From a virus: a DNA stretch of 49,875 nucleotides. Below, piece after piece: positions 46-44,402 of the stretch. The notes under the pieces are model-generated. The model saw nothing but the letters and a program-made list of their open reading frames with translations. It had not been told where the DNA came from and searched no databases. The stretch covers positions 1 to 49,875 of the IMG/VR virus record IMGVR_UViG_3300005511_000008; one strand, written 5' to 3'. The stretch's first letter is position 1. The number at the start of each line of letters is the position of its first letter. The position numbers and the translations under genes were made by a program.

Positions 46-3000
46 GTGGCGATCAAAGATGTCGAACTCGTAATTCGCGCAAAAGCCGAAGCCGCGAAAG
101 CAGTTCAATCCGTCACCGAAGCCCTCAAAGACCTGACCGCTGTTCAGGATCAAGTCGGCACCAGCGCTTCCCGAACAGACGGTCTGCTCGGGAAGCTCGC
201 TACTGAATTCGGTAACCTCAACAAACAGATTTCAGGTCTCGGTGCGCTCAACACCGTGGCCGATAAGATGGATAAAGCCGCGAACGCTATCTCGCGGCTC
301 GAACAGAACGCGGCGAAGGCGGCATCTGACGCTGCGAAGCTGAGCGCCGAATACGACAAGGCGACAACTGCGGTTGCCGGCCTGGCCGCGCGATCTCAAG
401 AGTCGGTGAGCGCCTTCAACGCGCAAAAGCAAGCCGTCGCTGGCGCCAAGTCCGAACATGCCCTTCTCAATGCGCAGGTTCGCGACGCCGAGTCCAACTA
501 CGCACGACTGTATCGAGCGGTTCAAGCTGCGAAGGCGCCGAGTGATGCGTTGAAGCAGTCACTCCGCGAACAGCGCGACGCGTTGATGTCGCTCTACAGT
601 CAGCAGCAGTCGTCCTCCGCAAACGTCGCAGCCCAACAGGCCGCGCTCACGGCCGCGCGCAACACCGCTCGTGAGAACCGTGAAGCCACAAACGCCGCGA
701 TAGCGAACCAGGCCGTGTTGCAGGCTGCAACGGATCGCGCCGCCCAATCCGCCGCTCGTGAAGCCTCGGCGCTCGCGACCGCCCGCGCCGCCATGGCCGA
801 AATGTCCGGCGTTGCCAACGCAGCGGCAACCGCTCTCGGCGGCGTGGCTGTGAGCCAGGACCAGATCGCCGCGGCTGCCGCCCGTGCGGCAAACGATTTG
901 AAGAACGTTTCGGCCGCCCTCGATCGACAGCGCGGCTCCGCGGCTGCGCCCTCCACTGTCACCGGCCCCGCAGCGACAGCGACCGCCGCCTACCGGGCGC
1001 AGGTACAAGCGGTTCAGGACGCTAAGGCCGCCTATCAGGCTGCAAGCGCTGAGGCGACCCGCCTGGGCGCGGCCCTGCGGACAACGAGCCAGCCAACCCG
1101 CGAGCTCCAAACCTCGTTCCTACTGTCTCAGGAGGCCTCGCGAGCCGCTAGGCAGGCCTATTTCGATCAGGCCGTCGCCCTCAATCAGTTGCGGGGACAG
1201 TCGCAAGGGTCCTTTCTGGCCTTCAGCCAGGCTGCGAGCCAAATGGCGACGTCGACAGTGGCCGTGCGCTCCGCGGCGGTCGCCGGCACGGAATCCCTGC
1301 GCTCGATCGCCAGCGCGGCTACTCAGGCCGGCGCGGCTGCTGGATCTGCAACTGCCGGCACATTCTCGCTACGCGACGCCTGGGCCTCCCTGACCGGCGG
1401 CGGACGCGAGTCTCTCTCGATATTCCAACGCATTCGCGGCGAGCTCTTGTCGCTTGCCGTGGGCTATCTTGGCGTTCAGGCAGCGATCAGCCGGCTCGGC
1501 GACGTGGTGACGACCTTCCGGACGCTGGAAGCGGCACAGAACCGCCTCAGCGCGGTATTCCAGCAAGACAAGGGCAAGACTGCTACCGAGCTCGAATTCC
1601 TGGCGCGCACCGCCAATCGGCTCGGCTTCAGCTTCGGCACCCTGGCCGACGAGTACGGCAAGTTCTCGGTAGCCGCCAGTACCGCAAACTTCACGATCGG
1701 AGAAACTAGGAAGGTATTCCTCGCGGTAGCCGAAGCCGCTCGAGTCAACAAGCTTTCGACCTCTGAGACGGAAGGCGTGTTCCTGGCGCTGAGCCAGATG
1801 CTCTCGAAGGGCAAAATCCAGTCGGAAGAATTGCGGCGCCAACTCGGCAACCGTCTGACCGGTGCTTTCCAAATCATGGCCGATGCACTCGGCATGACGT
1901 CTGCCCAACTCGATAAGGCGATGCAGAAGGGCGAAGTTCTCGCCAACCAAAGCACACTGCTGAAGTTCGCCGACGAGCTCAATAAGCGTTTCGGCGCACA
2001 GCTTCCGGAAGCGCTGACCTCACTTACGACCGAACTCGGCCGGTTCGAGAGCACACAGTTCATGGCCCGGCTGCTTGTCGCCACCGGGGGGTTCACAGAC
2101 GCCCTGAAGTCGGCGCTGAAAACGCTGAACGATCTGGCTGCCCAAAAGAGCACGCAAGACTTCTTCCTCGGCCTCGGCGCAGCGATGGGTCGCGTCGTCG
2201 AAGGCGGCGTGGTTCTGATCACCAACTTCAAATCGATCGTGAGCGCGATCGAAGTGCTGATTGCAGTGAAGATCGGAGCCACGTTTGCAGCGTGGGCGTC
2301 GCAGGCAGGCTTATTTGCTTCCGCGATGACTGCGATGCGCTCCGCCGCTATTGCAGCCGCCGTGTCGATCGAGTTGATCGGTCCCGCTGCGACGGCGGGC
2401 ACTATCGCAATGGGCGTTCTGCAAGGCGCCGCAGCTACGCTTCGTGCCGGCATGCTTGCGCTGTGGACCGCGATCGGAGGTCCGGTCGGCATCATCGCAG
2501 CCGCAACCGTGTTCTTCGGTGGCAATCTTCTGTTCAAGTGGTTGACGAGCGTCGACTCCGCAACGTCGGCCATGAGCGAGCACAAGCGCATCGTCGGTGA
2601 AGTCGCGGCAGCCTACGAGGCCGCTAGCGATAAGACCGACGCCTGGTCGAAGCGGGTAAAGAACGCCTCGTCGGTGGACATTCTCAACAATTTTAAGCAG
2701 CTTCAGGAAGAGCTCGCGACAGCGAAGCAACGGATCATAAACGCGGCAACCATCGATCAACAGTACCTGCTCGGTAGGAGTTCGCAGCAAAAAGATATCG
2801 ACGCTCTGGTGTCCGCATTCGTGCGCGGCCAAAAATCCGCGACCGAACTGCGAAACGAAGTCGATCAGATTTTCAAGACAACCAATAACGACGACGTTCG
2901 CGCCTACGCCGAGAACGTCATAAAGGCTGCCACAGCGTACGACAGCTTCTCTGTCGCGCTGGGTAAGACTGCCGTCATCGTTCAAGAGATGGGCATCAAG

Positions 3001-4950
3001 GCAGATGGTCTCGACAAAGCCCTCGAACAAAACCGTCAATCGATGCGCTCCGTGGTCGGTGCGGTCGACCAGGCCGGTGTCGGATTCCGCGCGGTAAAGT
3101 TCGACGTGGACGCGTTCAAGAAGGCATTTGAGGAAGTTCAGAATGTTATTCCCTCGGTCGCTACGGCGCTCGCCAATCTGAAAATTCAAACCGATCTCAA
3201 CAAGAACTCTTGGGAGGCTTTCACTCAAGCCGTTCGGTCTGGCGATTTTTCGAAGATTAAGGATGTTCTCGACACTACGAGCCGTGCCCAGATCGCCGCG
3301 AAGAACACGGCCGACACCGCTTTCGAAAAAAGCCTTCCCACTAACAACGATGCGATCAACGAACGCATCATCATGATCGAAAGCGGCGGCGATCCGAACG
3401 CTCGTCCGCGCCGCAAGGATGGCACGCTGGCGTCGAGCGCGGTCGGTCTGGGACAATTTACCGAAGAGACCTGGTTGGGCCTGTTCGACAAGGTGTTCCC
3501 TGCCTTGGCGGACATCAGCGACGCGGTCAAACTCGGTTACCGGACCGACGCCGACATTTCGAAGCAAATGCTGGCTGCGCTGACCACGCAGAACCAGGCC
3601 GCATTGGTCAGGGCCGGCATAACTCCCGACGCAACAAACACCTATCTCGCGCACTTCCTGGGCTCGGGCGGCGCGATCAAAATGCTGCTCGCCAACCCGA
3701 ATGAACTGGCGTCGGCCATTGCGAGCAAGGAAGCTGTAAAAGCCAACCCGACCATCCTCGGTAACGGCAAAACCGTTCAAGATGTCATTGATTACGCTGC
3801 CCGCAAGATGGGCGGTGGCGGGGCGCTCAACTCCACAGGCCGCACCCAGGGCGAGGTCACCCAGGGCGCCGTTAATGACGTTGTTCGGCAGAACGAACAA
3901 GAGCTCGAAATCCAGCGCCTAAAGAACGAAGGGCTCGATCGCGAAGCCGTCATTCAGGCGAAGATTAACGAGCTCCAGAAAGACGGCACGGTCCTCACTC
4001 AAGAGCAGATCGCGAAGATCCGCGAGACCACGGGTGCGCTGTACGACCAGCAGAATCAACGAAATGCCGAAAAGCAGGCCTTGCAAGAAGCGCAGGGGCT
4101 CTACGCCCGTCAGAAGCAGCTCATTGAAGAAATCAAGCAGGCGACCGTTCAAGGCGACACGGGGCGCGTCGGCACGCTTCGCGCCGAACTGACCAACGTC
4201 AACAAGGAATTGACGGAGGCCGTACAGAAAGCCCTCGCACTCGCTCAGGCTCTCGGTGACAACAAGGCTATCGCACAACTCAATGCGATGACCGCGAGCA
4301 TTTCTAACATTGGCGTCGCGCTTAAATCGCAGGTCGCCACTGCGCAGCAGATCAGCACGTCGATTGCCAACGGTTTGACCACCGCGCTCATGTCGTCGGT
4401 GGAGGCGATTGGCCAGGCTGCGCAAGGCACTAAGAGTTGGGGCGACGCTTTGAAGGGGGTCGGCCAGGCGTTTCTGAAGTTCGCTGCCGACTTCCTGCGC
4501 CAGATCGCCGAGATGATCATTAAGGCCGCGATCCTCAAAGCACTGCAATCGAGCGGCATCGGCGGCGGCATCGCGGGCGGAATCAATTCGCTGTTCAGCA
4601 CCGCGCACACGGGCGGCATCGTGGGCGCTAGATCGACAACGCGCACGGCCCCGACCGCGTGGTGGAACAACGCTGTGCGCTACCATTCGGGCGGCATGGT
4701 CGGCCTAGCTCCCGACGAGCGCGCGATCATCGCCAAGGCCAACGAAGAAGTCCTGACCGAGACCGATCCGCGTCATCGGTTCAACCTCGGCAAGGACGCG
4801 GCACCCGCGGCGACTGCCAACATCAAGGTCGTCAACACGATTGATCCCGGCGAATTCATGAGCGCGGGCCTCAGCAGCCGCGTCGGCGAGCAAGCCTTCC
4901 TCAACATGATCTCGGCAAACCGCACTACTCTGAAGCAGTTGTTGGCATGA
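46..4950 (+). CDS. Tail tape measure protein with embedded lytic transglycosylase domain
   Basis: A 1634-aa protein that sets tail length and probably passes through the host envelope at DNA entry. Residues 1-430 are Ala/Gln-rich and predicted coiled coil. Roughly 485-690 resemble the conserved tape measure domain, and 730-850 hold several hydrophobic stretches. An SLT-type lysozyme domain starts near residue 1105 with the Glu-Ser-Gly-Gly signature (catalytic Glu about 1112), followed by a Gly-Leu-Gly-Gln-Phe segment. A second coiled coil and a Gly-rich C-terminus follow. The start is GTG at 46 behind GGAGGA. At about 0.15 nm per residue the length implies a tail near 250 nm, suggesting a siphovirus. 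The 3' end overlaps the next gene by 4 bp. The catalytic domain is closely related to that of the endolysin at 19396. Confidence 0.93.
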   Translation: MAIKDVELVIRAKAEAAKAVQSVTEALKDLTAVQDQVGTSASRTDGLLGKLATEFGNLNKQISGLGALNTVADKMDKAANAISRLEQNAAKAASDAAKLSAEYDKATTAVAGLAARSQESVSAFNAQKQAVAGAKSEHALLNAQVRDAESNYARLYRAVQAAKAPSDALKQSLREQRDALMSLYSQQQSSSANVAAQQAALTAARNTARENREATNAAIANQAVLQAATDRAAQSAAREASALATARAAMAEMSGVANAAATALGGVAVSQDQIAAAAARAANDLKNVSAALDRQRGSAAAPSTVTGPAATATAAYRAQVQAVQDAKAAYQAASAEATRLGAALRTTSQPTRELQTSFLLSQEASRAARQAYFDQAVALNQLRGQSQGSFLAFSQAASQMATSTVAVRSAAVAGTESLRSIASAATQAGAAAGSATAGTFSLRDAWASLTGGGRESLSIFQRIRGELLSLAVGYLGVQAAISRLGDVVTTFRTLEAAQNRLSAVFQQDKGKTATELEFLARTANRLGFSFGTLADEYGKFSVAASTANFTIGETRKVFLAVAEAARVNKLSTSETEGVFLALSQMLSKGKIQSEELRRQLGNRLTGAFQIMADALGMTSAQLDKAMQKGEVLANQSTLLKFADELNKRFGAQLPEALTSLTTELGRFESTQFMARLLVATGGFTDALKSALKTLNDLAAQKSTQDFFLGLGAAMGRVVEGGVVLITNFKSIVSAIEVLIAVKIGATFAAWASQAGLFASAMTAMRSAAIAAAVSIELIGPAATAGTIAMGVLQGAAATLRAGMLALWTAIGGPVGIIAAATVFFGGNLLFKWLTSVDSATSAMSEHKRIVGEVAAAYEAASDKTDAWSKRVKNASSVDILNNFKQLQEELATAKQRIINAATIDQQYLLGRSSQQKDIDALVSAFVRGQKSATELRNEVDQIFKTTNNDDVRAYAENVIKAATAYDSFSVALGKTAVIVQEMGIKADGLDKALEQNRQSMRSVVGAVDQAGVGFRAVKFDVDAFKKAFEEVQNVIPSVATALANLKIQTDLNKNSWEAFTQAVRSGDFSKIKDVLDTTSRAQIAAKNTADTAFEKSLPTNNDAINERIIMIESGGDPNARPRRKDGTLASSAVGLGQFTEETWLGLFDKVFPALADISDAVKLGYRTDADISKQMLAALTTQNQAALVRAGITPDATNTYLAHFLGSGGAIKMLLANPNELASAIASKEAVKANPTILGNGKTVQDVIDYAARKMGGGGALNSTGRTQGEVTQGAVNDVVRQNEQELEIQRLKNEGLDREAVIQAKINELQKDGTVLTQEQIAKIRETTGALYDQQNQRNAEKQALQEAQGLYARQKQLIEEIKQATVQGDTGRVGTLRAELTNVNKELTEAVQKALALAQALGDNKAIAQLNAMTASISNIGVALKSQVATAQQISTSIANGLTTALMSSVEAIGQAAQGTKSWGDALKGVGQAFLKFAADFLRQIAEMIIKAAILKALQSSGIGGGIAGGINSLFSTAHTGGIVGARSTTRTAPTAWWNNAVRYHSGGMVGLAPDERAIIAKANEEVLTETDPRHRFNLGKDAAPAATANIKVVNTIDPGEFMSAGLSSRVGEQAFLNMISANRTTLKQLLA

Positions 4951-29203: not shown

Positions 29204-30580
29204 TTAAAACAGCATGCGCCAAAGCGCGCGGGCCCCGTAGAACGCCGCGGCGCCTAGTGCGGACAATATCAACAGTCCGCCGGCCCAACCCGCGGCGAGC
29301 GCTAACAGGCCTTGCAAATAGAGCCCCCATGATATCGGCCGCGCGGATCTCGCGACGCTGACGGGCGCGAAATGCTCGGCCCTCTTTTCGGTCGAGATGG
29401 CCCCCAACGCGCAAGCCGGCAGATTGACCCGGGCGAGCTCGCAAGGTTGCGGCGTTCCATTCGCCCCGACAAACGAGACTAAGGCCTGCCCTGGCGCCAT
29501 GGTCGCGATGAGCTCGGCCGCGTCTAGTCGCGGGTTGCGCGGCAACGTCTCGGCCGCGGCGCGAATCTCTTTCGCGTCTTTGCCCGTGGCAGCCCTCAAC
29601 GCATGCTGAACCCGGTTTGCCAATTGGCCGGCCACGGTCGACGGAATATCAGCGGGCGATTGCGTCGCGAAATAGACTCCAACGCCTTTCGATCGGACAA
29701 GCCGAATTATCTGCTCTATCCGCTGCAACAGAGCGGGCGGACAATTGTCAAAAAGCAGGTGCGACTCGTCGAATATGAAAACGAGGCGGGGCCGGTCGAG
29801 GTCCCCTACTTCCGGCATTCTGTCGAATAGATCGGATAACAGCCAAAGCAAAACCGTTGCGTAAACGTCTGGGGTTTTGATGAGCTCATCGGCCGCTAGG
29901 ATCGATATCAGGCCTTTCCCGTCTCGCGTTTCGATGAGCGACGCAGGATCAAAGCCGGGCGGTTCAAAGACGCTAACCGCTGAACTTAGACGCAATAGCG
30001 CGCGCTGAATCACGCCAATGGAGGCAGGCGAGACTTGCCCTAGCGTCGCGGATATCATCTCGCGTTGCGCCAGCATTTGCCCTAGGATCTTGCGAAAGTC
30101 TTTGATGCTTTCCAGCCTCGCGCCCGTGGCTGTGGCATATGCAAAAGCGATATCAACAACTAACGCCTGAACGTCGCTTAGGCCTAGCGTTCGCGAAAGC
30201 ATAGCCGGCCCCATTGCAGCGATTGAGATGCGCAACGGGCTGCCCTGCTTTCCGTAGCAGTCAAGAAATTGAACGGGACTAGGGCCTGTCGCGAGGCCCG
30301 CTATATCGCCTTTGACGTCCGCGAGGAAAACCGGAACGCCGATTTTAGAAAAGCCTTCCGCCAACGTTTGCAGCGTCACGGTTTTGCCGCTACCCGTGGC
30401 GCCCGCGATCAACCCATGGCGGTTAGCATATCGCCCCCGCAAAAAAATGCCGGGGGCGAGCTCAACCGATTTAGACGCATGCGCCGCGGCTATCTCATCG
30501 GGCGATAGATAGCGGGCCCCGCCCGTGGTTGCGTTGTCATGCGCAACCTTTTCCGCGACGCTGAAAAAACGCTTGCCCAT
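29204..30580 (-). CDS. HerA-like (DUF853) ATPase with C-terminal membrane anchor
   Basis: A 458-aa protein of the HerA/FtsK-type ATPase superfamily. Walker A is Gly-Ala-Thr-Gly-Ser-Gly-Lys-Thr near residue 60, followed by Phe-Leu-Ala-Asp-Val-Lys-Gly-Asp. Walker B is Leu-Val-Phe-Ile-Phe-Asp-Glu-Ser-His-Leu, and a sensor region Tyr-Phe-Ala-Thr-Gln-Ser-Pro-Ala-Asp follows, as in DUF853 proteins. HerA-type enzymes are hexameric DNA translocases. After residue ~400 two hydrophobic helices follow (Gly-Leu-Tyr-Leu-Gln-Gly-Leu-Leu and Gly-Leu-Leu-Ile-Leu-Ser-Ala-Leu), an addition I do not know from the family. Bacterial HerA is usually linked to NurA; no NurA-like gene is adjacent. A terminator follows. 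Confidence 0.85.
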   Translation of the reverse strand: MGKRFFSVAEKVAHDNATTGGARYLSPDEIAAAHASKSVELAPGIFLRGRYANRHGLIAGATGSGKTVTLQTLAEGFSKIGVPVFLADVKGDIAGLATGPSPVQFLDCYGKQGSPLRISIAAMGPAMLSRTLGLSDVQALVVDIAFAYATATGARLESIKDFRKILGQMLAQREMISATLGQVSPASIGVIQRALLRLSSAVSVFEPPGFDPASLIETRDGKGLISILAADELIKTPDVYATVLLWLLSDLFDRMPEVGDLDRPRLVFIFDESHLLFDNCPPALLQRIEQIIRLVRSKGVGVYFATQSPADIPSTVAGQLANRVQHALRAATGKDAKEIRAAAETLPRNPRLDAAELIATMAPGQALVSFVGANGTPQPCELARVNLPACALGAISTEKRAEHFAPVSVARSARPISWGLYLQGLLALAAGWAGGLLILSALGAAAFYGARALWRMLF

Positions 30581-32468: not shown

Positions 32469-32558
32469 CTAAGCGAACCAGCGGAGGGTTAGGCGGAACC
32501 AGCGCCTAGCCCTTTTGCTTTTCCATCTCAGCCGCAGCACCAAGCGCAGCTTTCGCAT
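32469..32558 (-). CDS. Arg-rich mini-ORF (tentative)
   Basis: A 29-aa frame starting at ATG 32558 behind an unusually good GGAGGA site. The product is very basic (Arg, Lys, Trp, Leu). It overlaps the 54-aa frame at 32506 in another frame; at most one is the main product. It might be a leader or a membrane-active peptide, or nothing. Confidence 0.3.
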   Translation of the reverse strand: MRKLRLVLRLRWKSKRARRWFRLTLRWFA

Positions 32559-32670
32559 TGCTCAGTCCTCCGATTCCGACACGCGGGATTGCGTGCGGGG
32601 TGCAAGCGCACCGCTCATGACACCGCGCGGCTGTCATGGAGGCTGCGCTGGCGTTATCGGCGAATCTCAT
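32506..32670 (-). CDS. Short ORF behind an operator element (tentative)
   Basis: A 54-aa frame from ATG 32670. AGGTGAG, which is part of the operator-like element at 32681, sits 9 bp upstream and could be its ribosome site. The product is Ala-rich with a few Cys and His residues and resembles nothing I know. Confidence 0.4.
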   Translation of the reverse strand: MRFADNASAASMTAARCHERCACTPHAIPRVGIGGLSNAKAALGAAAEMEKQKG

Positions 32671-32680
32671 TGTAGAAATC

Positions 32681-32695
32681 TCACCTGTTAGTTGA
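32681..32695 (-). promoter_or_regulatory. Operator/stoperator-like element
   Basis: TCAACTAACAGGTGA on the - strand, directly after the stop codon of the gene at 32697. One base differs from the copy at 18756 in the late operon. Reads CTCAAC to GTGA with transcription. Confidence 0.62.
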
Positions 32696-32696
32696 G

Positions 32697-32954
32697 TTAT
32701 TGGGCAAGGCTAGGGCGCGATTGATCCTGCGAGACTGCACAGGAAACGACGCGATAGAATTGGCGGGAATGCCGCAACTTACCTTCCCCGCTACCACGGT
32801 TGCCGAATGCAAGGCGCCGATACATAGCCTCGAAAGCATCTTCCGGTGAGCGCAGCCAGAGTCGCGCAGTCCAATCGCAACCGGTCAACGTTGAACGAAA
32901 ACAGATATCGTAAGCCTTGCGCGGTGCGGGCTTGCCGACGGGCTTAAAGTTCAT
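32697..32954 (-). CDS. Small protein at the head of the second leftward group
   Basis: An 85-aa protein with Cys-Asp-Trp-Thr-Ala-Arg-Leu-Trp-Leu-Arg-Ser-Pro-Glu-Asp-Ala, and basic ends. Not a known family. It has CCGGAG before the ATG and lies just downstream of the promoter at 32985-33012, so it is the first gene under that operator. Confidence 0.55.
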   Translation of the reverse strand: MNFKPVGKPAPRKAYDICFRSTLTGCDWTARLWLRSPEDAFEAMYRRLAFGNRGSGEGKLRHSRQFYRVVSCAVSQDQSRPSLAQ

Positions 32955-32984
32955 AGCGGCGACTCCGGTTTGTTCAATTATTCG

Positions 32985-33012
32985 ACTATGAACCTTGCGG
33001 GCTATAAGTCAA
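32985..33012 (-). promoter_or_regulatory. Leftward promoter, -35 overlapping operator
   Basis: On the - strand: -35 TTGACT (33012-33007), 16-bp spacer, -10 CATAGT (32990-32985). The -35 hexamer overlaps the operator at 33009-33023. It would serve the group from 32954 leftward. Confidence 0.5.
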
Positions 33013-33023
33013 CTGATAGTTGA
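33009..33023. promoter_or_regulatory. Operator, perfect dyad
   Basis: TCAACTGATAGTTGA, a perfect 6-3-6 palindrome and the cleanest copy of the element in the window. Confidence 0.7.
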
Positions 33024-33768
33024 TAAAATAGCCATCGGTTCTTGCGATTATTTTTGCGCCCGTTTGGCGTCTCGGCTCAAAGCCTTGACAGCGCTGGCGC
33101 CTGGTTGGACTCGAGCGATCTGCCGGCCCTGGTCGACGATAGCGGACAACCCTTGCAGCCCCTCGCCCTAGTCGAGAATTCCCATTTAGGAATTGCCTGC
33201 GATCGATTGCACGGGCTGCCCTGATCCATAGGCCTGCCCGTGGTTAGGATGGCAGGGCTGCCCCTCATCTCTCGCCCTATGGCAGGCGCCTAGCCGGCTT
33301 GCCCTGTGCGTTAATCTAGGATCGAAGCGGACAAGGGCGCGCATGATCGGCAGGCCTATGACTGCCCTGCCTACGGGCTGCCCTACTATTCTGCGTTACC
33401 TGGTAGCGATTGCAGTGCACAGGGGCAGGCCTGACCCAATGGCATAGGACAATGTGAGACAGATAATATTCCTATGTATCACAGCGTGTCAGTGCCTCAG
33501 GATCATAGGGCGCCAAACGTGTCTCGGCTTGTGTCATCGGGTATCAGGTTGGCTACGGGTCCCTCCCCCTGCAGTCGCGTTCCGCGGGGGGCGCAGAGCC
33601 GGGGTTTTCGAGAATTTTGGGAATTTCGTCATAGGACACCCGGTGTTTTTCGTAGCGACTTTGAATGTTTTTATCAGGTTGTCTCAGATGCCGGCGTAAG
33701 CGAAAGTCGGAGCGCAGGGCTCGACGCTTAGCGGTAAGCCGCCTCTGCAAGAGAACGGGGGTTTCGTC
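33024..33768. other. Non-coding region with repeated CTGCC/GGCAG words
   Basis: No convincing gene in 745 bp. Short + strand frames exist (for example around 33454-33731), but they have poor starts and odd composition. The middle is full of short GC-rich words in both orientations (see the repeat entry at 33211). It may hold regulatory sequence or an origin-associated region beside the GGTCAC cluster that begins at 33969. Confidence 0.5.
33211..33432. repeat. Dispersed GC-rich repeats, direct and inverted
   Basis: ACGGGCTGCCCT occurs at 33211-33222 and again at 33373-33384, with a near copy at 33254-33263. ATAGGCCTGCC (33228-33238) and GGCAGGCCTAT (33349-33359) are exact inverted copies; GGCAGGCCT recurs at 33424-33432. 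The pattern suggests multiple protein-binding sites or folded RNA. Confidence 0.6.
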
Positions 33769-33951
33769 ATGAAGGATTATCAGAAGCACCTGGAAAAACT
33801 CAGAACGGACGCCGCTGAATGCAGACTGATCTGCGATCTCGCCACAGACCCGGCAAAGCGTGAACTCTTCGACAGACTGGCTCACCATCTCACCACCCTT
33901 GCGGATCTTGTTGAGCAGGAAATGCTGAAGCGAACGCCAATGACCGGCTAA
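33769..33951 (+). CDS. Small helical protein of a rhizobial type
   Basis: A 60-aa all-helical protein with Tyr-Gln-Lys-His-Leu-Glu-Lys-Leu-Arg, Asp-Ala-Ala-Glu-Cys, Leu-Ala-Thr-Asp-Pro-Ala-Lys-Arg, and Leu-Ala-Asp-Leu-Val-Glu-Gln-Glu. I associate small proteins of this pattern with Bradyrhizobium genomes, where many copies occur; function unknown. Its origin may be host rather than phage, carried between the two non-coding blocks. Confidence 0.6.
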   Translation: MKDYQKHLEKLRTDAAECRLICDLATDPAKRELFDRLAHHLTTLADLVEQEMLKRTPMTG

Positions 33952-34275
33952 TTCAACCCGGGACGGGTGGTCACAGCACGGCAAATTTCGCCACGGTGCC
34001 GTGACCGGCTCGAAGCATCTGATTTTATTTTATTATTTGTGGATGGTCACAGTGGTCATAGTGGTCACAGCACATATCCCGCGTATGCGCGCGCTCGTGG
34101 AGGGGTCTGATCCGTAACCGAACGACGTCTGTACGACTCTGGGAAATTTTCGGCCCGCTTTTCCGTGACCACCGTGACCAGGTGTCTTTTTTGACGGCAT
34201 GGCAATGATTTACGCCGGTCACAGCAAGCAAAAACTGCTGTGACCGGTCATAGCAATGCTGTGACCAGGGCGGAT
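33952..34275. other. Candidate replication origin: GGTCAC iteron-like cluster and AT-rich stretch
   Basis: About eleven copies of GGTCAC/GGTCAT occur on both strands in 324 bp (33969, 34001, 34045, 34054, 34063, 34165, 34174, 34217, 34238, 34246, 34259). Some are in 9-bp steps: three in a row at 34045-34070 and two at 34163-34180. Two are in an inverted pair with 12-bp arms, 34215-34226 and 34236-34247. An AT-only run, close to 19 bp, lies at 34021-34039, where strand opening could begin. The primase-helicase gene ends at the right edge. No coding frame is convincing. Confidence 0.6.
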
Positions 34276-36669
34276 TTAGCCTAACAAATCGTCGTCTTCG
34301 GGGACTTCTGAGGCCCATTCAATCGGGCTGCCGACCATTTTTTCGAACTCGGCGCGGCACTCCGCAAGGCGCGGAATCACGTAGAAAAGGTGCCGATTTT
34401 CACCCGTTCGAGGGCGCATTTTTCTGATCGACGGGAAAATCTGATGAACGCGACGTCCGAAAGTCGCGGCGTTGAGCGGATCACCCTGATATCGGCGTCG
34501 TCTCAGCCAGTCCTCGTAATTGAGACGGAAGTCGTCGGTCGTGACCTTGATCGAGGCGTCCTCCCACGTCACTTCGACGTCCTCGAACATCGAATCCCCA
34601 GGCGCGCGGCCGGAAGACAGGATTTCGAACAGCCATTGCTCGATGCCGCGGAGCGAGGCGATTTTCTGATCGCGTAGGCCGGTGGTCATCGGCGGGTTGC
34701 GCACGTCGAAGCCAGTCAGATCGAGGTCGAGCAGATGGTGCAGCAGCGCGGCGCGACCGCCGCGGTGCATTTCCTCGCGCAGCTTGGCAAAGTAGACGGT
34801 GTCGCGCGCCCTGGTGTCGGCCACATTGAGCACGCAGAAACGGCGCTCGTCGAAAGTCGCTGGCACGATCCAGTCTTCGTTCGAACTGATCACGATCCGC
34901 AGCACCGACAGAACTTGAAACGCGTTGATGCCCTTGCTCTCGATCATCACCTGCTCGGACGTGATCAGGTGCTTCAGTTGTCCCTCGGCCTTCTTGTCGC
35001 CGGCCCAGAAGCCTTCTTCGACGTGCAGCAGTAGGGTTTTTTCCTGATGCGCGTTGAAACGACCGATGAGATGTTCGGGGTTCGAGATTTTGGTGTGATG
35101 GTGCGGGAAAAGGCCGCCGACGTAGTCGCCGATCGTGTCTTTGCCCGCGCCTTTGCGGCCCTTCATCACGAGCGCGGTGCCGGGCTTCTCCCACGGGCGT
35201 TGAACCATGTGGGCGAACCAGCGGATCACCCATTGATAGGCGTTTTCGTCGCCGGCACATACGTTTTCGCGCAGGTGGTCGAGGAAGCGCGCGCAGGATG
35301 ACGACGGATCGGGCTCGACAGCGAAGCCCTGCCAATGGTTGTAGGCGCCTTCGGGCCCGCCTTGCGGAGCAAACACGATCCCGTTCGGATAGCTGCGACG
35401 AGCCTTGTGCCGCATCCAAGCCTTGGTGACCGGCTCGGTGGACTTCTCAGTCGCGACCCGATCGTTTTCGTAATAGTTATAGACGTCATGCACCGATCCG
35501 TAGGATGTGGTGCCGTCTTTTTCGAAGGTGAGGATCACCGTCTTGCCTTTTACGAAGGCAACGGCGTGTTGTTTGTTCAGCTTTGCGATCCGCTTCGGCA
35601 CATGGCCGAGCTCGTGATGCACTTCAGCCTGTTTGAGCTTGCGAACGCGCTCCGGCTGCTCGGTAATCGTGCCGGCGCCCTCCCCGAGCAGATCGTCAAC
35701 GTCGTCCGCGACCTCGGGATTCTCGACGTCGTCGCCTTGGTCATCCTCATCGCCGAGATCGTCGAAGGCGTTCATCAATCGAACTTCCTTCGCGGCCGAC
35801 AACAGGGTCGCCATGCGAACGGGTTTGCTCGATTGCCGAAATGAACGCCAAACTCGGCGTTGATCTTCGGGATCGTATTTGTCGGAGGCGGCCGAGAACT
35901 CGACCCAGGCCCTGTAACCCTCTTTGCCGCCGTTGAACTCGTGGTGCAACGCCATGCCGACCTGTAGCCAGCCGTCGCGGTCCTCGCGCCAGGTGTCGGT
36001 CGGCAGGTCCGCCAGGATCTCCTTTGCCTCGGCGATCGAGAGGCCGAGCGCATTGGTGCGGACGTCGGTTTCATCTCTGCTCGGCGGCTCCCAGCCGGCG
36101 ATGCGCGCAGCAGGAATGATCGGGCCGACGCCGAGCTCGACGAGATCCGCGGGCCATTCACGCTCCCATTTGTAGCGCTTGCCGGTGTCGGGGTGGATCG
36201 AGGGCGGCACGACGACCTGCTTGCCAGTGCCGAAGCGCTCGATTTCCCAGGCCCAATGCGCCTTTTTGTCCTTCCCGATGATTTTCTCGGTCGAGTGACG
36301 CAGCTTTTTCGACGGGAATGGTCGATCGGTCAGGAAATATAGATGCCGGCTCTCACCCATCGAGCCCGAGATGACAGATGGCAGCGAACGCGCTCCCGGA
36401 ATGAGTTCGAGCAGCGCGTGCCAGGCCTCATCGGCCTTGTCCGGATCGCGGATGTCGAGGTCGATGCAGTGAAGGTATAAATCGCTGAAAAACGACGGCT
36501 CGCCAAGGCGAACGCCGAGATTATAGCCATCCCGATAGGTCTTCGTGAGGGTGGCGAGTGAAGCGACGCGTTCTGTCGACCAGCTATCGTTGACCGGCGC
36601 TTTCGAACGCGGCCTTAGCCAGTGTAGAGCGAATCCCCAACTCGACAGCCGTTCGGCTTGGTCGAGCAC
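34276..36669 (-). CDS. Primase-polymerase / SF3-type helicase
   Basis: A 797-aa protein. Residues 1-190 look like an archaeo-eukaryotic primase-polymerase (Cys-Ile-Asp-Leu-Asp-Ile-Arg catalytic acids; His-Leu-Tyr-Phe). Residues 205-290 match a PriCT-2 linker domain (Gly-Trp-Leu-Gln-Val-Gly-Met-Ala-Leu). Residues ~440-660 match a DUF5906/D5-type SF3 helicase with Walker A Gly-Arg-Lys-Gly-Ala-Gly-Lys-Asp and a Ser-Ser-Asn-Glu-Asp sensor. A linker between primase and helicase has Asp-Asp-Val-Asp-Asp-Leu-Leu-Gly, and the protein ends Glu-Asp-Asp-Asp-Leu-Leu-Gly. It makes primers and unwinds DNA at the fork. Confidence 0.93.
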   Translation of the reverse strand: MLDQAERLSSWGFALHWLRPRSKAPVNDSWSTERVASLATLTKTYRDGYNLGVRLGEPSFFSDLYLHCIDLDIRDPDKADEAWHALLELIPGARSLPSVISGSMGESRHLYFLTDRPFPSKKLRHSTEKIIGKDKKAHWAWEIERFGTGKQVVVPPSIHPDTGKRYKWEREWPADLVELGVGPIIPAARIAGWEPPSRDETDVRTNALGLSIAEAKEILADLPTDTWREDRDGWLQVGMALHHEFNGGKEGYRAWVEFSAASDKYDPEDQRRVWRSFRQSSKPVRMATLLSAAKEVRLMNAFDDLGDEDDQGDDVENPEVADDVDDLLGEGAGTITEQPERVRKLKQAEVHHELGHVPKRIAKLNKQHAVAFVKGKTVILTFEKDGTTSYGSVHDVYNYYENDRVATEKSTEPVTKAWMRHKARRSYPNGIVFAPQGGPEGAYNHWQGFAVEPDPSSSCARFLDHLRENVCAGDENAYQWVIRWFAHMVQRPWEKPGTALVMKGRKGAGKDTIGDYVGGLFPHHHTKISNPEHLIGRFNAHQEKTLLLHVEEGFWAGDKKAEGQLKHLITSEQVMIESKGINAFQVLSVLRIVISSNEDWIVPATFDERRFCVLNVADTRARDTVYFAKLREEMHRGGRAALLHHLLDLDLTGFDVRNPPMTTGLRDQKIASLRGIEQWLFEILSSGRAPGDSMFEDVEVTWEDASIKVTTDDFRLNYEDWLRRRRYQGDPLNAATFGRRVHQIFPSIRKMRPRTGENRHLFYVIPRLAECRAEFEKMVGSPIEWASEVPEDDDLLG

Positions 36670-36678
36670 GCGGCAGCC

Positions 36679-36984
36679 TTATTTCTTGAAGACGAATGGA
36701 TAAAATTCTTCGATCGTGACGCGCCCGCGGGCCTTTTCCACAATCAGCATCGCCAGCGCTGGCACGCAATGATTCGTGCGGACCGGCTTGCAGATGCCTT
36801 CATGAGTGTAGCCCAGCTTTCCTGCGACAGCTTTCAGGTCGAGCATCCTAGTCCCGCTCTTGCGAACCAGGTTCGGAAAAGCCTTCTTCAGCACATCGTA
36901 AAGCGGGCCGCGCGAGTATTCCCCGGTTTCCGGATCGAGGGTGACGATCGCCACCAATCCGGACTTTTTCTTAGGTTTGGTCAT
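36679..36984 (-). CDS. Small basic protein upstream of the primase-helicase
   Basis: A 101-aa protein: Lys-rich start, a Thr-Leu-Asp-Pro-Glu-Thr-Gly-Glu-Tyr segment, and a helix rich in Arg and Lys followed by an Asp-Leu-Lys-Ala-Val-Ala-Gly-Lys-Leu-Gly-Tyr stretch that could be a helix-turn-helix. It lacks the Leu-Leu-Gly tail. AGGAG precedes the ATG. It is read from the divergent control region near 37.05 kb; a regulator or origin-binding protein fits. Confidence 0.7.
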   Translation of the reverse strand: MTKPKKKSGLVAIVTLDPETGEYSRGPLYDVLKKAFPNLVRKSGTRMLDLKAVAGKLGYTHEGICKPVRTNHCVPALAMLIVEKARGRVTIEEFYPFVFKK

Positions 36985-38790: not shown

Positions 38791-39996
38791 GTGTCCGAAG
38801 GTCACTCCGAACACGCTCCGTCGGGGGCCGACTCGTGGATGGTCTGCAAGGGCTATATCAATGCCACCCGTGGCCTCCCCGACAAGGCGACGATCTTTGC
38901 CGCCGAAGGGACCTGCGCGCACACGATCCACGAGACTTGCCTGCTGCTCGGTTGCGATCCCGATATTTTCCTCGGACGGAAGATGTCGGCCGACGGGTAC
39001 GATTTCGTTGTGGAGCCGGCATGGGTGCGAGCGCTGCAACCCGGTATCGATCGCGTCCGCGAGTTTGCCGGCAAGATGTTCGTCGAGTATCGCGTCGATA
39101 CTACTCGATGGGTTGGTCTCGATCGCAAGGGGCGGCGCCAGGGCGGAACCCTCGACACCGGCATCGTTGGTAAGAAGCTTGTCGTCATCAAAGATCTCAA
39201 GTTCGGCGCCGGGGTGCCGGTGTCGCCCGTGCGCAATCGTCAAATGATGATCTACGCCCTCGGCTTCTGGGACAACGTTGCTCGGCATCTGACTAATGCG
39301 ACGGATTTCCTGCTCATCGTCGATCAGCCGCGATGCGCTGGCGGTGGCGGAGAATGGGAATGCACTCTCGACGAGCTCCTGGCGTTTGGCGAGGAAGTCA
39401 AAGAGGCGGCCGAAGCAACCCGCGATCCTAATGCACCACGCACCGCCTCGGAGAAGGGCTGCAAGTTCTGCCCCGCCGCGAGAACCGGTTGCGACGAGTA
39501 CGATCGCTTCCAACTCGATATCGTGAGCCAGCTATTCGACGATCTGGATTCCGACGAGCCGCCGAACCTTCCAAGGAAGCTGACGCCGGAGCGTCGCAGC
39601 TACGTGGTTCACCATCGCGCCATGTTCACCAAATGGCTCGAACAACTTCATGCGGATTGCTTGACCGACGCCCTAGCCGGCGATCCCACGCCAGGTCTCA
39701 AAGCCGTCATGGGGCGTAAGGGCGATCGGCGGTGGCTCGATCCCGCGGTGGCCGAGGCGTTCCTCCTCAAGCGGCTTTCGGCTGACAAAGCTTTCATCAA
39801 AAAGTTGATATCCGCACCGCAAGCCGAGAATCTGCTTGCGACGAAGGACTGGAAGCTCGCCACCAAACTAATCACGCAGGACCCCGGCAAACCGATGTTG
39901 GTCCCTGACACCGATGAGCGGCCGGCGATCACGCCGACTGCCGATCTGTTCGACGATCTCGATGAGGTCGGCGAAACGAGCGATCTGCTCGGCTAA
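38791..39996 (+). CDS. DUF2800 protein, RecB/Cas4-like nuclease fold
   Basis: A 401-aa protein from a GTG start, 2 bp after the previous gene. Its pattern is DUF2800: N-terminal His-x-Gly-Ala-Asp-Ser-Trp, Gly-Thr-Leu-Asp-Thr-Gly-Ile-Val, then Ile-Lys-Asp-Leu-Lys-Phe-Gly-Ala-Gly with candidate Asp and Lys of a PD-(D/E)xK nuclease site, and a Cys cluster Gly-Cys-Lys-Phe-Cys-Pro-Ala-Ala-Arg-Thr-Gly-Cys as in Cas4-type iron-sulfur nucleases. In phages it is paired with DUF2815 and probably works in recombination or DNA end processing. The C-terminus reads Glu-Thr-Ser-Asp-Leu-Leu-Gly. Confidence 0.9.
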   Translation: MSEGHSEHAPSGADSWMVCKGYINATRGLPDKATIFAAEGTCAHTIHETCLLLGCDPDIFLGRKMSADGYDFVVEPAWVRALQPGIDRVREFAGKMFVEYRVDTTRWVGLDRKGRRQGGTLDTGIVGKKLVVIKDLKFGAGVPVSPVRNRQMMIYALGFWDNVARHLTNATDFLLIVDQPRCAGGGGEWECTLDELLAFGEEVKEAAEATRDPNAPRTASEKGCKFCPAARTGCDEYDRFQLDIVSQLFDDLDSDEPPNLPRKLTPERRSYVVHHRAMFTKWLEQLHADCLTDALAGDPTPGLKAVMGRKGDRRWLDPAVAEAFLLKRLSADKAFIKKLISAPQAENLLATKDWKLATKLITQDPGKPMLVPDTDERPAITPTADLFDDLDEVGETSDLLG

Positions 39997-40015
39997 ACAT
40001 GAAAGGTATGGCCCT

Positions 40016-40663
40016 ATGGCTAAAGAAAGCACCAATGTTCAAGTGCGTCTCGAAAACGTCCGTCTGTCTTTTGCCCATGTGTTTCGTGCACAGAAGCCGA
40101 AGCCGGACAAGGACGGCAATGTCGGAGCCGCGAAGTTCAACTGTTCGTTCCTGCTCGATAAAAAGAGCGCGACCGGAAAGAAGAACATCGAAAAGATGAA
40201 AGCGGCGATGGTTCAGGCGCGCGACAACAAGTGGCCGAAAAATCCCCCGAAAATCAAACCCGACAAGATGTGTATGCGGGATGGTGATCAGGAAGATTGG
40301 GACGGCTACGAAGGTATGTATTACGTCTCTGCGTCCAACTCTAAACGCCCGAAAATTCTCGATCGGGACAAGACGCCGCTGACCGAAGAAGACGGAAAAA
40401 TCTATTCCGGCTGCTACGTGAACGGCATCGTGAACGTTTGGTGTCAGGACAACGAACACGGCAAGCGCATCAATGCCTCTCTTGAAGGCATCCAGTTCGT
40501 GAAAAACGGCGAAGCGTTTGGCGCGGCTCCCCTCGACGATGACGCTTTTGACGACCTCGGCCAGGATGAGGACGACGATGAGAGCGATGGGAAAGGGAGT
40601 TCGGCCCGGCGGGGCCGGTCTCTCGACGACGATGACGGGGATGGTGACGACCTTCTCGGCTAA
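40016..40663 (+). CDS. DUF2815 ssDNA-binding-like protein
   Basis: A 215-aa protein starting at ATG 40016 (AAAGG nearby). The N-terminal ~165 residues match DUF2815, a phage family treated as OB-fold ssDNA-binding (Arg-Leu-Ser-Phe-Ala-His-Val-Phe, Met-Arg-Asp-Gly-Asp, Tyr-Ser-Gly-Cys-Tyr-Val-Asn). The last 50 residues are an extreme acidic tail with repeated Asp and Glu ending Asp-Asp-Leu-Leu-Gly. In bacterial SSB a similar acidic tail ends in hydrophobic residues that bind partner proteins. A terminator follows. Confidence 0.9.
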   Translation: MAKESTNVQVRLENVRLSFAHVFRAQKPKPDKDGNVGAAKFNCSFLLDKKSATGKKNIEKMKAAMVQARDNKWPKNPPKIKPDKMCMRDGDQEDWDGYEGMYYVSASNSKRPKILDRDKTPLTEEDGKIYSGCYVNGIVNVWCQDNEHGKRINASLEGIQFVKNGEAFGAAPLDDDAFDDLGQDEDDDESDGKGSSARRGRSLDDDDGDGDDLLG

Positions 40664-40672
40664 TCGAACCTT

Positions 40673-40705
40673 CGGGGTGTTGGGCGACCGACACCCCGCT
40701 TTTCT
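40673..40705 (+). terminator. Rho-independent terminator after DUF2815
   Basis: CGGGGTGT and ACACCCCG arms (8 bp perfect) with a 10-base loop, followed by CTTTTCT. The polymerase gene starts at 40722, so the hairpin may set the ratio of ssDNA-binding protein to polymerase. Confidence 0.8.
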
Positions 40706-40721
40706 CTGACCACGTCAGCCA

Positions 40722-42641
40722 ATGAAAACGTCGCTCGCGGACGCTGCGCTGTTCGATACCGAAGTGTATTGGAACTACTTTCTCGCAGCCTTCAAATCGG
40801 TGAAGACCGGCAAAGTGCTTCGGTTGGAGAAGTCCGACCGATGCGTCCTCGATCGCAAGAAGCTGCGCCAGGTGCTCAACGAATACTGCACCGTCGGCTT
40901 CAACTCCATTCCGTTCGATATTCCGATCGTGTCGGCCGCCCTCGCCGGCTTCAGCAACAAGGCGCTGAAGCAGATCGCCAACGAGATCATTAAGGACGAC
41001 GCCAAACCCTGGGAAATCTCGCGCACCTACGATTTTGAATTGATCGAGTGCGATCATGTCGACCTGATCGAGATCGCACCAGGGCAGAACAGCCTCAAGA
41101 TTTACAACGGCAAAATGCACGGCAGGCGCATGCAAGACCTGCCCGTGGACGAGAATGCCGTGCTGACGCACGACGAGATGGACGTCGTTTCGAACTATTG
41201 CGTCAATGACCTAGACGCCACCGGCCTGCTGATGCAGACGCTCAAGGAGCAATTGGCTCTCCGCGAACAGATGACCAAGCAGTACGGCGTGGATCTCCGC
41301 TCCAAATCGGATGCACAGATTGCCGAGGCCGTAATCAAGAAGGAGTTGAAGCGGCTGACCGGTGAAGAACCGAAGAAGCCGAAGATCGTGCCGGGCAAGC
41401 GGTACAAATACAGGGTCCCCGACTTCATCCGCTACGAGTCGCCCGAGCTCAAGGAAGTGCTCGCAAACGTCCAATCCGCCGATTTCGCCATTTCGTCGAG
41501 CGGCAAGGTCTTGATGCCCGACGTCTTGAAGAAGGCCAAGATCAGGATCGGCGGTTCGGTCTTTCGCATGGGCATCGGCGGACTGCACTCGTCGGAAAAG
41601 AGCATTGCGCACCGGGCAGACGGCTCCACCAGGATCGTCGACCGCGACGTCCGCGGCTACTACCCGCAGATCATTCTCAACCTTGGGCTCTATCCTAAGC
41701 ATCTCGGGCCGGTGTTCCTACGAGTGTTCAGGTCGTCGGTTGAGCGGCGCAACAAAGCGAAAGACCGCGTTGACGAGCTCAAGAAGCTGGTCAAGTGCGC
41801 GAACGATGAAGCGACGCTGCCGAAACAGGAATTGAAGACCAATGAGGACGTCTCCGGCAGCTTGAAGATCGTCAACAACGGCGCCTTCGGCAAGCTGGGC
41901 TCGAAATGGTCCGTTCTGTTTGCGCCCGATCTGATGATTCAGGTGACGATCGGCGGCCAACTGTCCCTGCTGATGCTGATCGAGATGGTCGAGCTCGCCG
42001 GCTTCCGCGTGATCAGCGCCAACACCGACGGCATTGTCATCGTCTGTCCGAATGCGCGCCAGGCGCGACTCGAGGCCGTTATCGCGGAATGGGAGAAGCG
42101 GACCGGATTCGAGACCGAGGAAACCGAGTATCGCGCGCTCTATTCCCGCGACGTGAACAATTACTTCGCCGTGAAGACCGATGGCTCTGTCAAGAAAAAG
42201 GGGGCATACGCGGAGCCCAAGATCGTCGCGAGCTCGTGGCCGTCCCCGCTCAACGAAGTCTGCTCCGACGCGGTGGTTTCCTTCCTAACGAAGGGGGTAC
42301 CGCTCCATCAGACGATCCACGCTTGCACGGACATTCGACGCTTCGTCACGATCCGCACCGTGAAGGGCGGCGCTGTCAAGAACGGAATGTATCTCGGCAA
42401 GGCGATCCGCTGGTACTACTCGACGGATGGCAGCGGCTCCATCAACTACAAACTGAACGGCAACAAGGTAGCGCGCACTGACGGCGCGAAGCCGCTCATG
42501 GAATTGCCCGACACCTTCCCCGAAGACGTCGATTACGATTGGTACATTCGCGAGGCAGAAAGCATCCTCGACGACATCGGCTACCGCTGTGCTCGGCCTT
42601 CGTCTTCCTCCCCCGAACTGCTGTTGGCAGCCCTTCTATGA
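40722..42641 (+). CDS. Family B DNA polymerase
   Basis: A 639-aa protein. N-terminal 3'-5' exonuclease: Asp-Thr-Glu near residue 12 and Asn-Tyr-Cys-Val-Asn-Asp-Leu-Asp-Ala-Thr near 165. Polymerase motif A: Asp-Arg-Asp-Val-Arg-Gly-Tyr-Tyr-Pro-Gln (about residue 308). Motif B: Lys-Ile-Val-Asn-Asn-Gly-Ala-Phe-Gly-Lys. Motif C: Asn-Thr-Asp-Gly (Asp about 436). It replicates the phage DNA with proofreading. The next gene overlaps the stop by 4 bp. The C-terminus (Pro-Glu-Leu-Leu-Leu-Ala-Ala-Leu-Leu) has no Gly and is not the tail motif of its neighbours. Confidence 0.95.
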   Translation: MKTSLADAALFDTEVYWNYFLAAFKSVKTGKVLRLEKSDRCVLDRKKLRQVLNEYCTVGFNSIPFDIPIVSAALAGFSNKALKQIANEIIKDDAKPWEISRTYDFELIECDHVDLIEIAPGQNSLKIYNGKMHGRRMQDLPVDENAVLTHDEMDVVSNYCVNDLDATGLLMQTLKEQLALREQMTKQYGVDLRSKSDAQIAEAVIKKELKRLTGEEPKKPKIVPGKRYKYRVPDFIRYESPELKEVLANVQSADFAISSSGKVLMPDVLKKAKIRIGGSVFRMGIGGLHSSEKSIAHRADGSTRIVDRDVRGYYPQIILNLGLYPKHLGPVFLRVFRSSVERRNKAKDRVDELKKLVKCANDEATLPKQELKTNEDVSGSLKIVNNGAFGKLGSKWSVLFAPDLMIQVTIGGQLSLLMLIEMVELAGFRVISANTDGIVIVCPNARQARLEAVIAEWEKRTGFETEETEYRALYSRDVNNYFAVKTDGSVKKKGAYAEPKIVASSWPSPLNEVCSDAVVSFLTKGVPLHQTIHACTDIRRFVTIRTVKGGAVKNGMYLGKAIRWYYSTDGSGSINYKLNGNKVARTDGAKPLMELPDTFPEDVDYDWYIREAESILDDIGYRCARPSSSSPELLLAALL

Positions 42642-42901
42642 TTGAAAGCGAAATCGAGCGCATCGTTTGCGAGCATGCCGAGGCCGTGGGCTGGCTGGTG
42701 CGGAAGTTCAAGTATATCGGCCGGCGCGCAGCCGCCGATCGCCTGCTTATCCGTAACGGTCGAGTAGTCTTCATCGAATTCAAGCAGGCGGGAAAGACGG
42801 CTCGCGAAGGTCAGGCGCGCGAGCACGCACGGCTGAAGGGGCACGGCGCCGAGGTCTACCTAATCGATAGTATCGAGGCCGGTTTTGACGTTCTCCGCTG
42901 A
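42638..42901 (+). CDS. VRR-NUC domain nuclease
   Basis: An 87-aa protein with the VRR-NUC arrangement: Glu near residue 5, Asp-Arg-Leu-Leu-Ile-Arg-Asn-Gly-Arg, Phe-Ile-Glu-Phe-Lys, and Ala-Arg-Glu-His-Ala-Arg-Leu. VRR-NUC enzymes cut structured or branched DNA. ATGA overlap with the polymerase gene and about 17 bp overlap with the helicase gene point to one translation unit. Confidence 0.9.
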   Translation: MIESEIERIVCEHAEAVGWLVRKFKYIGRRAAADRLLIRNGRVVFIEFKQAGKTAREGQAREHARLKGHGAEVYLIDSIEAGFDVLR

Positions 42902-44402
42902 CACCGACATCGCCATTCTGCTCGGGCACAATGGCGGCCCTCCCCTCATCGATATCGCCACACTGCTCGGCGACACGGTCGCGCAGGTTCGTGATCGAGA
43001 GGACCTACGTCATTATCAGAAATACCTCGCCGACACCGTTTTCGAGATGGAAGCGGTCATGCTGGCCGTCGACATGGGACTCGGCAAGACGGCCGCCACG
43101 CTCACCGCGATCCGAAAGCTTATCGACTTCTTTATCGTGAAGCGCGTTCTGATCGTTGCGCCGCTGCGCGTTGCCAACGAGACCTGGCCTGACGAGATCG
43201 CAGCATGGAAGCACACTCGGGTCCTTTCCTACGAGCTATTGACCGGAGCCGAAGCGCAACGTCGCGCACGCGCCCAAATCCCGGCCGACATCCACATTAT
43301 CAATCGAGAGAACATCCGCTGGTTGTGGGCCCTCTGGGGCGATCAATGGCCCTACGATATGGTGGTGTGGGACGAGTCGAGCCGTTTGAAAGCTTGGAAG
43401 AAGCGGACCGCGAAGAAGCACCCGAAGACCGGCAAGCGGGCCCTCACAGAATTTGGGGCGATGGCGCAGGCGCGCCCCTATGTTGATCGCTTTGTCGAGC
43501 TCACCGGCACGCCTTCGCCCAACGGCGTCAAGGATCTCGGCGGTCAGATTTACATGCTCGACGGCGGCCGGCGGCTCGGTGCAAACAAGACCGCGTTCGA
43601 GCAGCGATGGTTCGACAGCGATTATATGGGCTACAAGCTCGAACCGAAGCCGTACGCCCAGGATCAGATCATGACCCTGGTTAAAGACATCATGATCGGC
43701 ATGCGCGCGGAAGACTATATCGAGCTCCCTCCATTCGTACCCAACATCATCAAGGTCGATCTGCCCGACAAGGCGATGCGAGAATACAAGCGGTTCGAAC
43801 GAACCCTAGTCTCGGAAGCCTACGACGTTGAGGCCGTCAGCCGCGGCGTCCTCACGAACAAGCTGCTGCAATTCGCGAACGGCAGCATGTATCAAGAGGC
43901 AGAATTCGATGAGATCACCGGTCGCAAAGTTCGTCCGCCTGCAGTTCCGATTCACGACGCGAAATTGGAGCCGCTCGATCGGATCATTGAGGAAGCCGCT
44001 GGCGAGTCCGTCCTAGTAGCGTATAGCTTCCGCTTCGATCTCGACAGGATTCGGAAGGCGTTCCCGAATGCGGTGATCTTCGATGAGGAACCGAACTTCG
44101 TAAAACTGTGGAATGCAAAGAAGATCGGCATCGGGCTCGCGCACCCAGCTTCTATCGGCCATGGACTGAACATGCAGTTCGGCGGCCATATCTGCGTGTG
44201 GTACGGGATGACTTGGAGCTTAGAATTATACCAGCAGTTCAATAAGCGTCTCCCCCGCCCAGGGCAGCCTCACCCCCTAGTGACCGGTCATCATATCCTC
44301 GCCCGTGGAACCATGGACGAAAACGCCTACGCAACAATGAATTCGAAAGGCGTCACGCAAGATGCTGTTAATGAAGCTGTTCGAGTAAAGCTGCTTTCTT
44401 GA
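42885..44402 (+). CDS. SNF2-type DEAD/DEAH helicase
   Basis: A 505-aa superfamily 2 helicase. Walker A: Asp-Met-Gly-Leu-Gly-Lys-Thr (Lys about 68). DEAH-like box: Val-Val-Trp-Asp-Glu-Ser-Ser. Gly-Thr-Pro-Ser-Pro-Asn-Gly and C-terminal Gln-Phe-Asn-Lys-Arg-Leu-Pro-Arg-Pro-Gly-Gln match phage SNF2-like proteins, which often follow VRR-NUC genes. The start TTG 42885 overlaps the nuclease gene by 17 bp with GAGG upstream. It may remodel forks or recombination intermediates. It ends the rightward early operon. Confidence 0.92.
   Translation: MTFSADTDIAILLGHNGGPPLIDIATLLGDTVAQVRDREDLRHYQKYLADTVFEMEAVMLAVDMGLGKTAATLTAIRKLIDFFIVKRVLIVAPLRVANETWPDEIAAWKHTRVLSYELLTGAEAQRRARAQIPADIHIINRENIRWLWALWGDQWPYDMVVWDESSRLKAWKKRTAKKHPKTGKRALTEFGAMAQARPYVDRFVELTGTPSPNGVKDLGGQIYMLDGGRRLGANKTAFEQRWFDSDYMGYKLEPKPYAQDQIMTLVKDIMIGMRAEDYIELPPFVPNIIKVDLPDKAMREYKRFERTLVSEAYDVEAVSRGVLTNKLLQFANGSMYQEAEFDEITGRKVRPPAVPIHDAKLEPLDRIIEEAAGESVLVAYSFRFDLDRIRKAFPNAVIFDEEPNFVKLWNAKKIGIGLAHPASIGHGLNMQFGGHICVWYGMTWSLELYQQFNKRLPRPGQPHPLVTGHHILARGTMDENAYATMNSKGVTQDAVNEAVRVKLLS

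Follow-up and report, generated by a model that had tools for sequence, protein, structure and literature searches.

In E. coli, the origin of the PICI EcCICFT073 allows plasmids to be maintained in a rep- and ori-dependent manner (PMC6092414). SaPI Rep and SCCmec Cch2 use C-terminal domains to bind iterons located 3' of the respective genes (PMC7581432). In P4, crr is located 3' of the alpha gene and both of its strands carry short sites spaced in 9-bp steps, and the primase-helicase has a C-terminal winged helix (PMC4234260). pRN1 depends on a stem-loop of 100 nt situated 3' of the Prim-Pol gene (PMC4234260). For BIP-1, to which BPP-1 is nearly identical, Berkner et al. found no iteron origin and proposed a stem-loop (PMC4234260). 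On inspection, the EcCICFT073 origin showed the site order FF R FFF | RR F RR, with the word GGTAGA mostly in 9-bp steps.

An iteron array was analysed in a 49,875-nt stretch of viral DNA (IMG/VR virus record IMGVR_UViG_3300005511_000008, positions 1 to 49,875; referred to as the window). Sequence comparison makes it very probable that this array is the phage's replication origin, of the PICI/P4 kind, bound by the C-terminus of the neighbouring Prim-Pol protein and loading two opposed hexamers. The interval 33952-34275 contained 11 GGTCAY sites spanning 33969-34266, namely nine exact GGTCAC matches (33969+, 34001-, 34045+, 34063+, 34165-, 34174-, 34217+, 34240-, 34261-) and two GGTCAT matches (34054+, 34246+). 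A twelfth site, GGTCAT at 33940 (-), was located just beyond the left edge. The count of about eleven GGTCAC motifs in the original prediction was right, against approximately 0.5 GGTCAY sites expected: 2000 dinucleotide shuffles of the interval gave on average 0.29 GGTCAC (maximum 4) and 0.53 GGTCAY (maximum 4). Away from the array, every 324-bp segment of the 49.9 kb had at most a few such sites.

Along the strand of the helicase gene (-), the sites followed the order FRFRFF|RRRFRF, with six on each side of 34110. The whole candidate origin (33940..34266) thus comprises two half-origins that face inward, each with six of the 12 iterons. The inner part of half-origin 1 is a forward pair in a 9-bp step, TGGTCACGG TGGTCACGG (34165..34179, -), and its outer iterons occupy 34217..34266 (34261-, 34246+, 34240-, 34217+). 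The inner part of half-origin 2 is an inverted triplet in 9-bp steps, GGTCACAGT GGTCATAGT GGTCACAGC (34045..34068, +), and its outer iterons occupy 33940..34006 (34001-, 33969+ and 33940-, the last as GGTCAT). The 9-bp direct-repeat steps noted earlier were confirmed (34045/34054/34063 and 34165/34174), as were the inverted pairs (34215-34226/34236-34247, with 12-nt perfect arms, and 34044-34058/34166-34180) and the position just 3' of the primase-helicase gene 34276-36669 (-), the end of which is 9 bp from the array. Searching the origin with blastn against phages and plasmids gave no match, and no Rfam family or tRNA was found in it. The DnaA box TTWTNCACA was absent from the array and had its sole match in the window at 36734. 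An iteron plasmid origin of the DnaA/Rep type was rejected, since the array has no DnaA boxes and the initiator is of Prim-Pol/SF3 type, not RepA type. Coding sequence was rejected because gaps of 1-2 nt separate the arrays of the window and L001.

The proposed initiator (34276..36669, -; 797 aa) consists of a Prim-Pol domain (residues 11-175), PriCT_2 (216-293) and a DUF5906 NrS-1-like SF3-type helicase (502-610). The AlphaFold2 model had a mean pLDDT of 85. Its helicase half matched the C-terminal region of the hexameric NrS-1 polymerase, the closest solved structure (E 7.6e-19), and SaPI5 Pri-Rep. A C-terminal winged helix was predicted at residues 707-779 (34333..34551, -). Its best PDB match was the RFX DNA-binding domain with E-values of 0.004-0.03; the fold class is likely RFX-like, and kinship with RFX is unproven. 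Residues 730-774 form the recognition helix and wing in the model. This winged helix is likely the iteron binder. A 101-aa protein encoded upstream of the initiator (36679..36984, -) had matches in only three of the relatives covered, L001, L002 and L086, and is unlikely to be the common iteron binder. The rest of the replication module (38791..44402, +) encodes a DUF2800 exonuclease, an Enc34-type ssDNA-binding protein, a PolA-type DNA polymerase and a SNF2/DEAD helicase. A HerA-like helicase gene (29204-30580; PF05872, E 1e-128) was found in the accessory region left of the origin.

Between the inner blocks lies a central alternating purine/pyrimidine tract, CGCGTATGCGCGCGC (34080..34094), with the core CGCGCGCATA. 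Only three alternating runs of at least 14 occurred in the window. In 36 non-redundant origins, the number on which all spacer statistics rest, the longest alternating run in the central spacer averaged 14.4, compared to 7.6 in dinucleotide shuffles and 5.8 in flanks. Tracts of at least 10 bp were present in 32 of these 36 spacers versus 1 of 67 flanks, and the empirical p against windows from the same locus was at most 0.05 in 25 of 35. The runs, largely (CG)n plus TA/CA steps, may form Z-DNA or allow the strands to separate easily. The central spacer of the window was only 42% A+T and thus is not the AT-rich region that separates the sets in PICI/SaPI origins. The A/T-only run of the original prediction was found (34022..34038, 17 nt), flanked by the inverted triplet on one side and the next single iteron on the other, and an A/T-rich block was retained in relatives. 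Since this run is outside both convergent blocks and the conserved centre is the alternating tract, the candidate opening element may or may not have that role.

The array was also present 3' of primases 87-100% identical to the window protein; in L001 it is displaced by 1 kb through an inserted stretch. Scanning IMG/VR for GGTCAC pairs with a 9-bp step yielded 75 contigs, 58 with fewer than 7 sites and 17 with dense clusters, and 16 of the 17 dense clusters were directly beside a VapE or DUF5906 helicase gene. The dense cluster of L035, a one-strand repeat run with no helicase gene next to it, was rejected. Matches from a scan for GGTCCA triplets were also rejected as origins, because, among the matches listed, nearly all of the 80 loci examined had no SF3-type helicase nearby. 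Their 9-bp period would fit Gly-Pro-X (collagen-like) coding. For both reasons, DNA-pattern matches alone were not counted.

A protein-first set of 160 IMG/VR loci was collected from helicase proteins. De novo clusters of repeated 7-mers (at least 6 per 400 bp) were found in 80 of 162 regions 3' of related helicases versus 4 of 143 upstream regions. For the layout itself, a detector of a forward run facing an inverted run was used, with shuffles and upstream regions as controls. It scored downstream of 136 of 183 related helicase genes, in 0 of 178 shuffles and in 9 of 148 upstream controls, and 104 scores exceeded every control; the set is redundant, with one VapE family dominating, and some loci that seeded the two profile searches had originally been picked up by DNA patterns. 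In the window, the two facing sets were found with a score of 29, and no shuffle scored at all. The iteron words vary by phage (GGTCAC, GGTCCA, GTCCCAC, TAGGACA and others) while the arrangement persists. The median site number was 12 and the mode 6|6 (28 non-redundant cases with non-palindromic words). The half-origins of the window depart from the commonest order by an extra inverted site and, on one side, a pair instead of a triplet.

The full origin type was also present in the isolated phages LPPA36, U5 and PS3, in stretches without annotated genes. The 3' flanks of RHph_X2_30, L088 and L089, which are Prim-Pol relatives from other lineages, contained no such array, and MP1412, MW2, Sonora, DLP4, Mallos, RcSimone-Hastad and RDJL6 gave no or merely a weak detector match. 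The link between primase and array is therefore not universal. Acidovorax phage Aval had weak FF|RR pairs (score 14) and was left unclassified. Paenibacillus phage Bob, which has a Gram-positive host, carries a CTGCAAC iteron array 3' of its VapE helicase gene (L390, 3600-4400) in a different arrangement, also unclassified, and an alternating GCGCATATACGTGTGCGTG stretch outside that array. GC skew, suggested earlier as a check, gave a divided picture: the window minimum (32582) is 1.5 kb from the array, but the skew extremes of LPPA36, U5, PS3 and BPP-1 are not at the arrays.

In five related Bradyrhizobium prophages (L087, L090-L093), TTCCTGTAC-type sites occupy the positions of GGTCAC in the window. 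The switch includes single sites outside the main stem. Despite it, the central CGCGCGCATA is invariant, and the A/T block and flanks are unchanged. The helicase core of L087, L092 and L093 is 93-96% identical to that of the window protein, as is most of L091, and that of L090 is 85% identical; residues 721-760, where alignable in frame, are only 60-62% identical in the switched relatives. Over 49 DUF5906-type loci, a partial Mantel test, which controls shared ancestry only partly, correlated winged helix with motif given the core (r=0.45, p=0.0005) and not core with motif given the winged helix (r=-0.08, p=0.87). In a sliding window, the correlation with word similarity peaked at residues 730-774, the best iteron predictors. 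By these sequence correlations, the iteron word tracks only the C-terminal winged helix, not the helicase core. The primase reading frames of L087, L091 and L093 are broken, and these prophages look like remnants. L092 contains a local 9-bp iteron expansion (2720-3140) with TTCCTATAC repeated, which suggests slippage as a source of changes in iteron number.

The predicted iteron-type phage origin beside the primase-helicase is strongly supported by comparison: the convergent layout recurs, the site word co-varies with the winged helix, and the tested EcCICFT073 origin has an identical layout. In this reading, the Prim-Pol/SF3-type protein encoded next to the array would bind iterons of about 9 bp through its C-terminal winged helix. 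As the six sites on either side of the centre make two opposed half-origins, each is probably where one helicase hexamer is loaded. These rings would face each other over a centre of 45-185 bp with the alternating tract, and with A/T-rich DNA in or near it. They would melt the centre, the Prim-Pol domain would prime, and two forks would be launched, with SSB and PolA of the phage itself extending them. The sequences show the sites and their order, the recurring layout, its match to the tested PICI origin and the co-variation of word and winged helix; for this locus we infer iteron binding, a single subunit on every site, loading of a double hexamer, central melting and bidirectional forks.

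It is improbable that the sites are instead operators of a phage regulator, a repressor or the 101-aa protein at 36679, that control transcription and not replication. Operators, too, typically show clustered inverted and direct repeats, and two sigma-70-like matches were found within the array on the - strand. However, the array keeps its place 3' of the helicase gene in differing gene contexts, with the separation in L001 due to an inserted stretch, and the site word tracks the winged helix of the helicase protein. The restricted occurrence of the 101-aa protein and the identical layout of the EcCICFT073 origin also argue against operators.

Slightly less probable still is a large hairpin or cruciform as the functional element, as proposed for pRN1 and BIP-1 (Berkner 2014), with the iterons merely its stem. 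The convergent blocks are inverted repeats, single-strand folding of the array was better than in shuffles (z=-4.7), and the stem-loop needed by pRN1 is likewise 3' of a Prim-Pol gene. Hairpin potential therefore exists, but the window has 12 iterons, unlike an iteron-free stem-loop origin of the pRN1 type, and single sites beyond the main stem share the word and switch along with it. The site sequence also follows the winged helix, and in BPP-1 two iteron pairs face each other. The least probable reading takes the repeats as places where the Prim-Pol domain primes, instead of protein-loading iterons: although each GGTCAC is GTGACC on the opposite strand, NrS-1 polymerase uses 5'-GTGA/GTGG (PMC8718748), pRN1 ORF904 primes at GTG and CCPol-MP primes inside iterons (PMC7581432), GTG or CAC occurs in only 12 of 49 iteron consensuses, and the word tracks the C-terminal winged helix.

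The origin reading was further compared with each known system. Like PICI/SaPI origins, the array is directly 3' of a helicase/primase gene and has two opposed iteron sets, and the window protein shares with the SaPI initiator a C-terminal DNA-binding domain, predicted in the former. The EcCICFT073 spacer is approximately 22 bp without an alternating tract, whereas the phage centres are 45-185 bp with one; the iteron words also differ (GGTCAC versus GGTAGA). Unlike PICI/SaPI origins, the window type occurs in tailed phages and with a fused AEP Prim-Pol. With a DNA polymerase, an SSB and helicases of its own, the window differs from a helper-mobilised satellite. P4 crr resembles the array in its place 3' of a primase-helicase gene, 9-bp steps, sites on both strands and an initiator with a C-terminal winged helix. 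However, the 120-bp direct repeats of crr form a tandem duplication without an alternating tract, and no duplicated block was found in 32500-35000, which holds a single dyad. The primase of P4 alpha is of the Toprim type, whereas the window protein has a Prim-Pol; P4 also has a second, distant ori. NrS-1 polymerase has the same domain order as the window protein. In NrS-1, however, a single 8-nt priming site occurs twice and no iteron array has been described, compared to 12 iterons here; the NrS-1 tail was described as a novel fold (PMC7102993), whereas that of the window protein is a predicted RFX-like winged helix.

The replication module of BPP-1 has the same gene set and orientation as the window, with the Prim-Pol gene opposite an exonuclease/SSB/PolA/helicase block. 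A candidate FF|RR arrangement of GCCTCGTTT in 9-bp steps around CATACGTGTACATG was found between bbp27 and bbp28 (NC_005357.1, 26559-26739; L377/L388), 0.45 kb 3' of the Prim-Pol gene. The centre is alternating, and there are only two sites per side. BPP-1 thus probably shares the phage origin grammar, and its candidate convergent iteron origin differs from the stem-loop proposed for its near-twin BIP-1.

New here are the EcCICFT073-like site-order grammar in tailed phages (the isolated LPPA36, U5 and PS3, probably BPP-1) and the conserved alternating central tract, which is unreported for this origin type in the open PMC papers covered; an earlier description in subscription journals is possible. 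We tentatively suggest, with somewhat more doubt than confidence, that such arrays form a widespread and so far undescribed class of phage origin whose grammar is fixed. Six iterons would make up each of the two opposed half-origins, every site would take one subunit of the two helicase rings, a conserved alternating (Z-DNA-prone) tract would act in opening, and words would be freely re-coded together with the winged helix of the initiator. That many tailed phages, isolated ones included, share this site order links satellite and phage replicons, and a layout shared under differing words shows how such start sites evolve. This recurrence offers a ready way to locate origins in phages with Prim-Pol or VapE helicases, where the origins examined lack annotation. 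The 6+6 count is a simple testable code for double-hexamer loading, and natural re-coding of iterons with one winged helix provides protein-site pairs for specificity work.

Repeats had also been predicted in the non-coding stretch to the left, a part of the prediction with weaker backing. CATAGG occurred 7 times in 32955-33768, exceeding all 300 shuffles for 6-mers, whereas 7-, 8- and 10-mers stayed within the shuffles. Within 33190-33450, CATAGG and CTGCCC/GGCAGG words recurred in both orientations, with longer words within shuffles. The non-coding segment 33287-33638 was 81% conserved in L087, L091 and L093, although the iterons that separate it from the primase had switched. This segment, which includes a G+C-rich box, TTCCGCGGGGGGCGCAGAGCCGGGG, may serve as a cos or packaging site.
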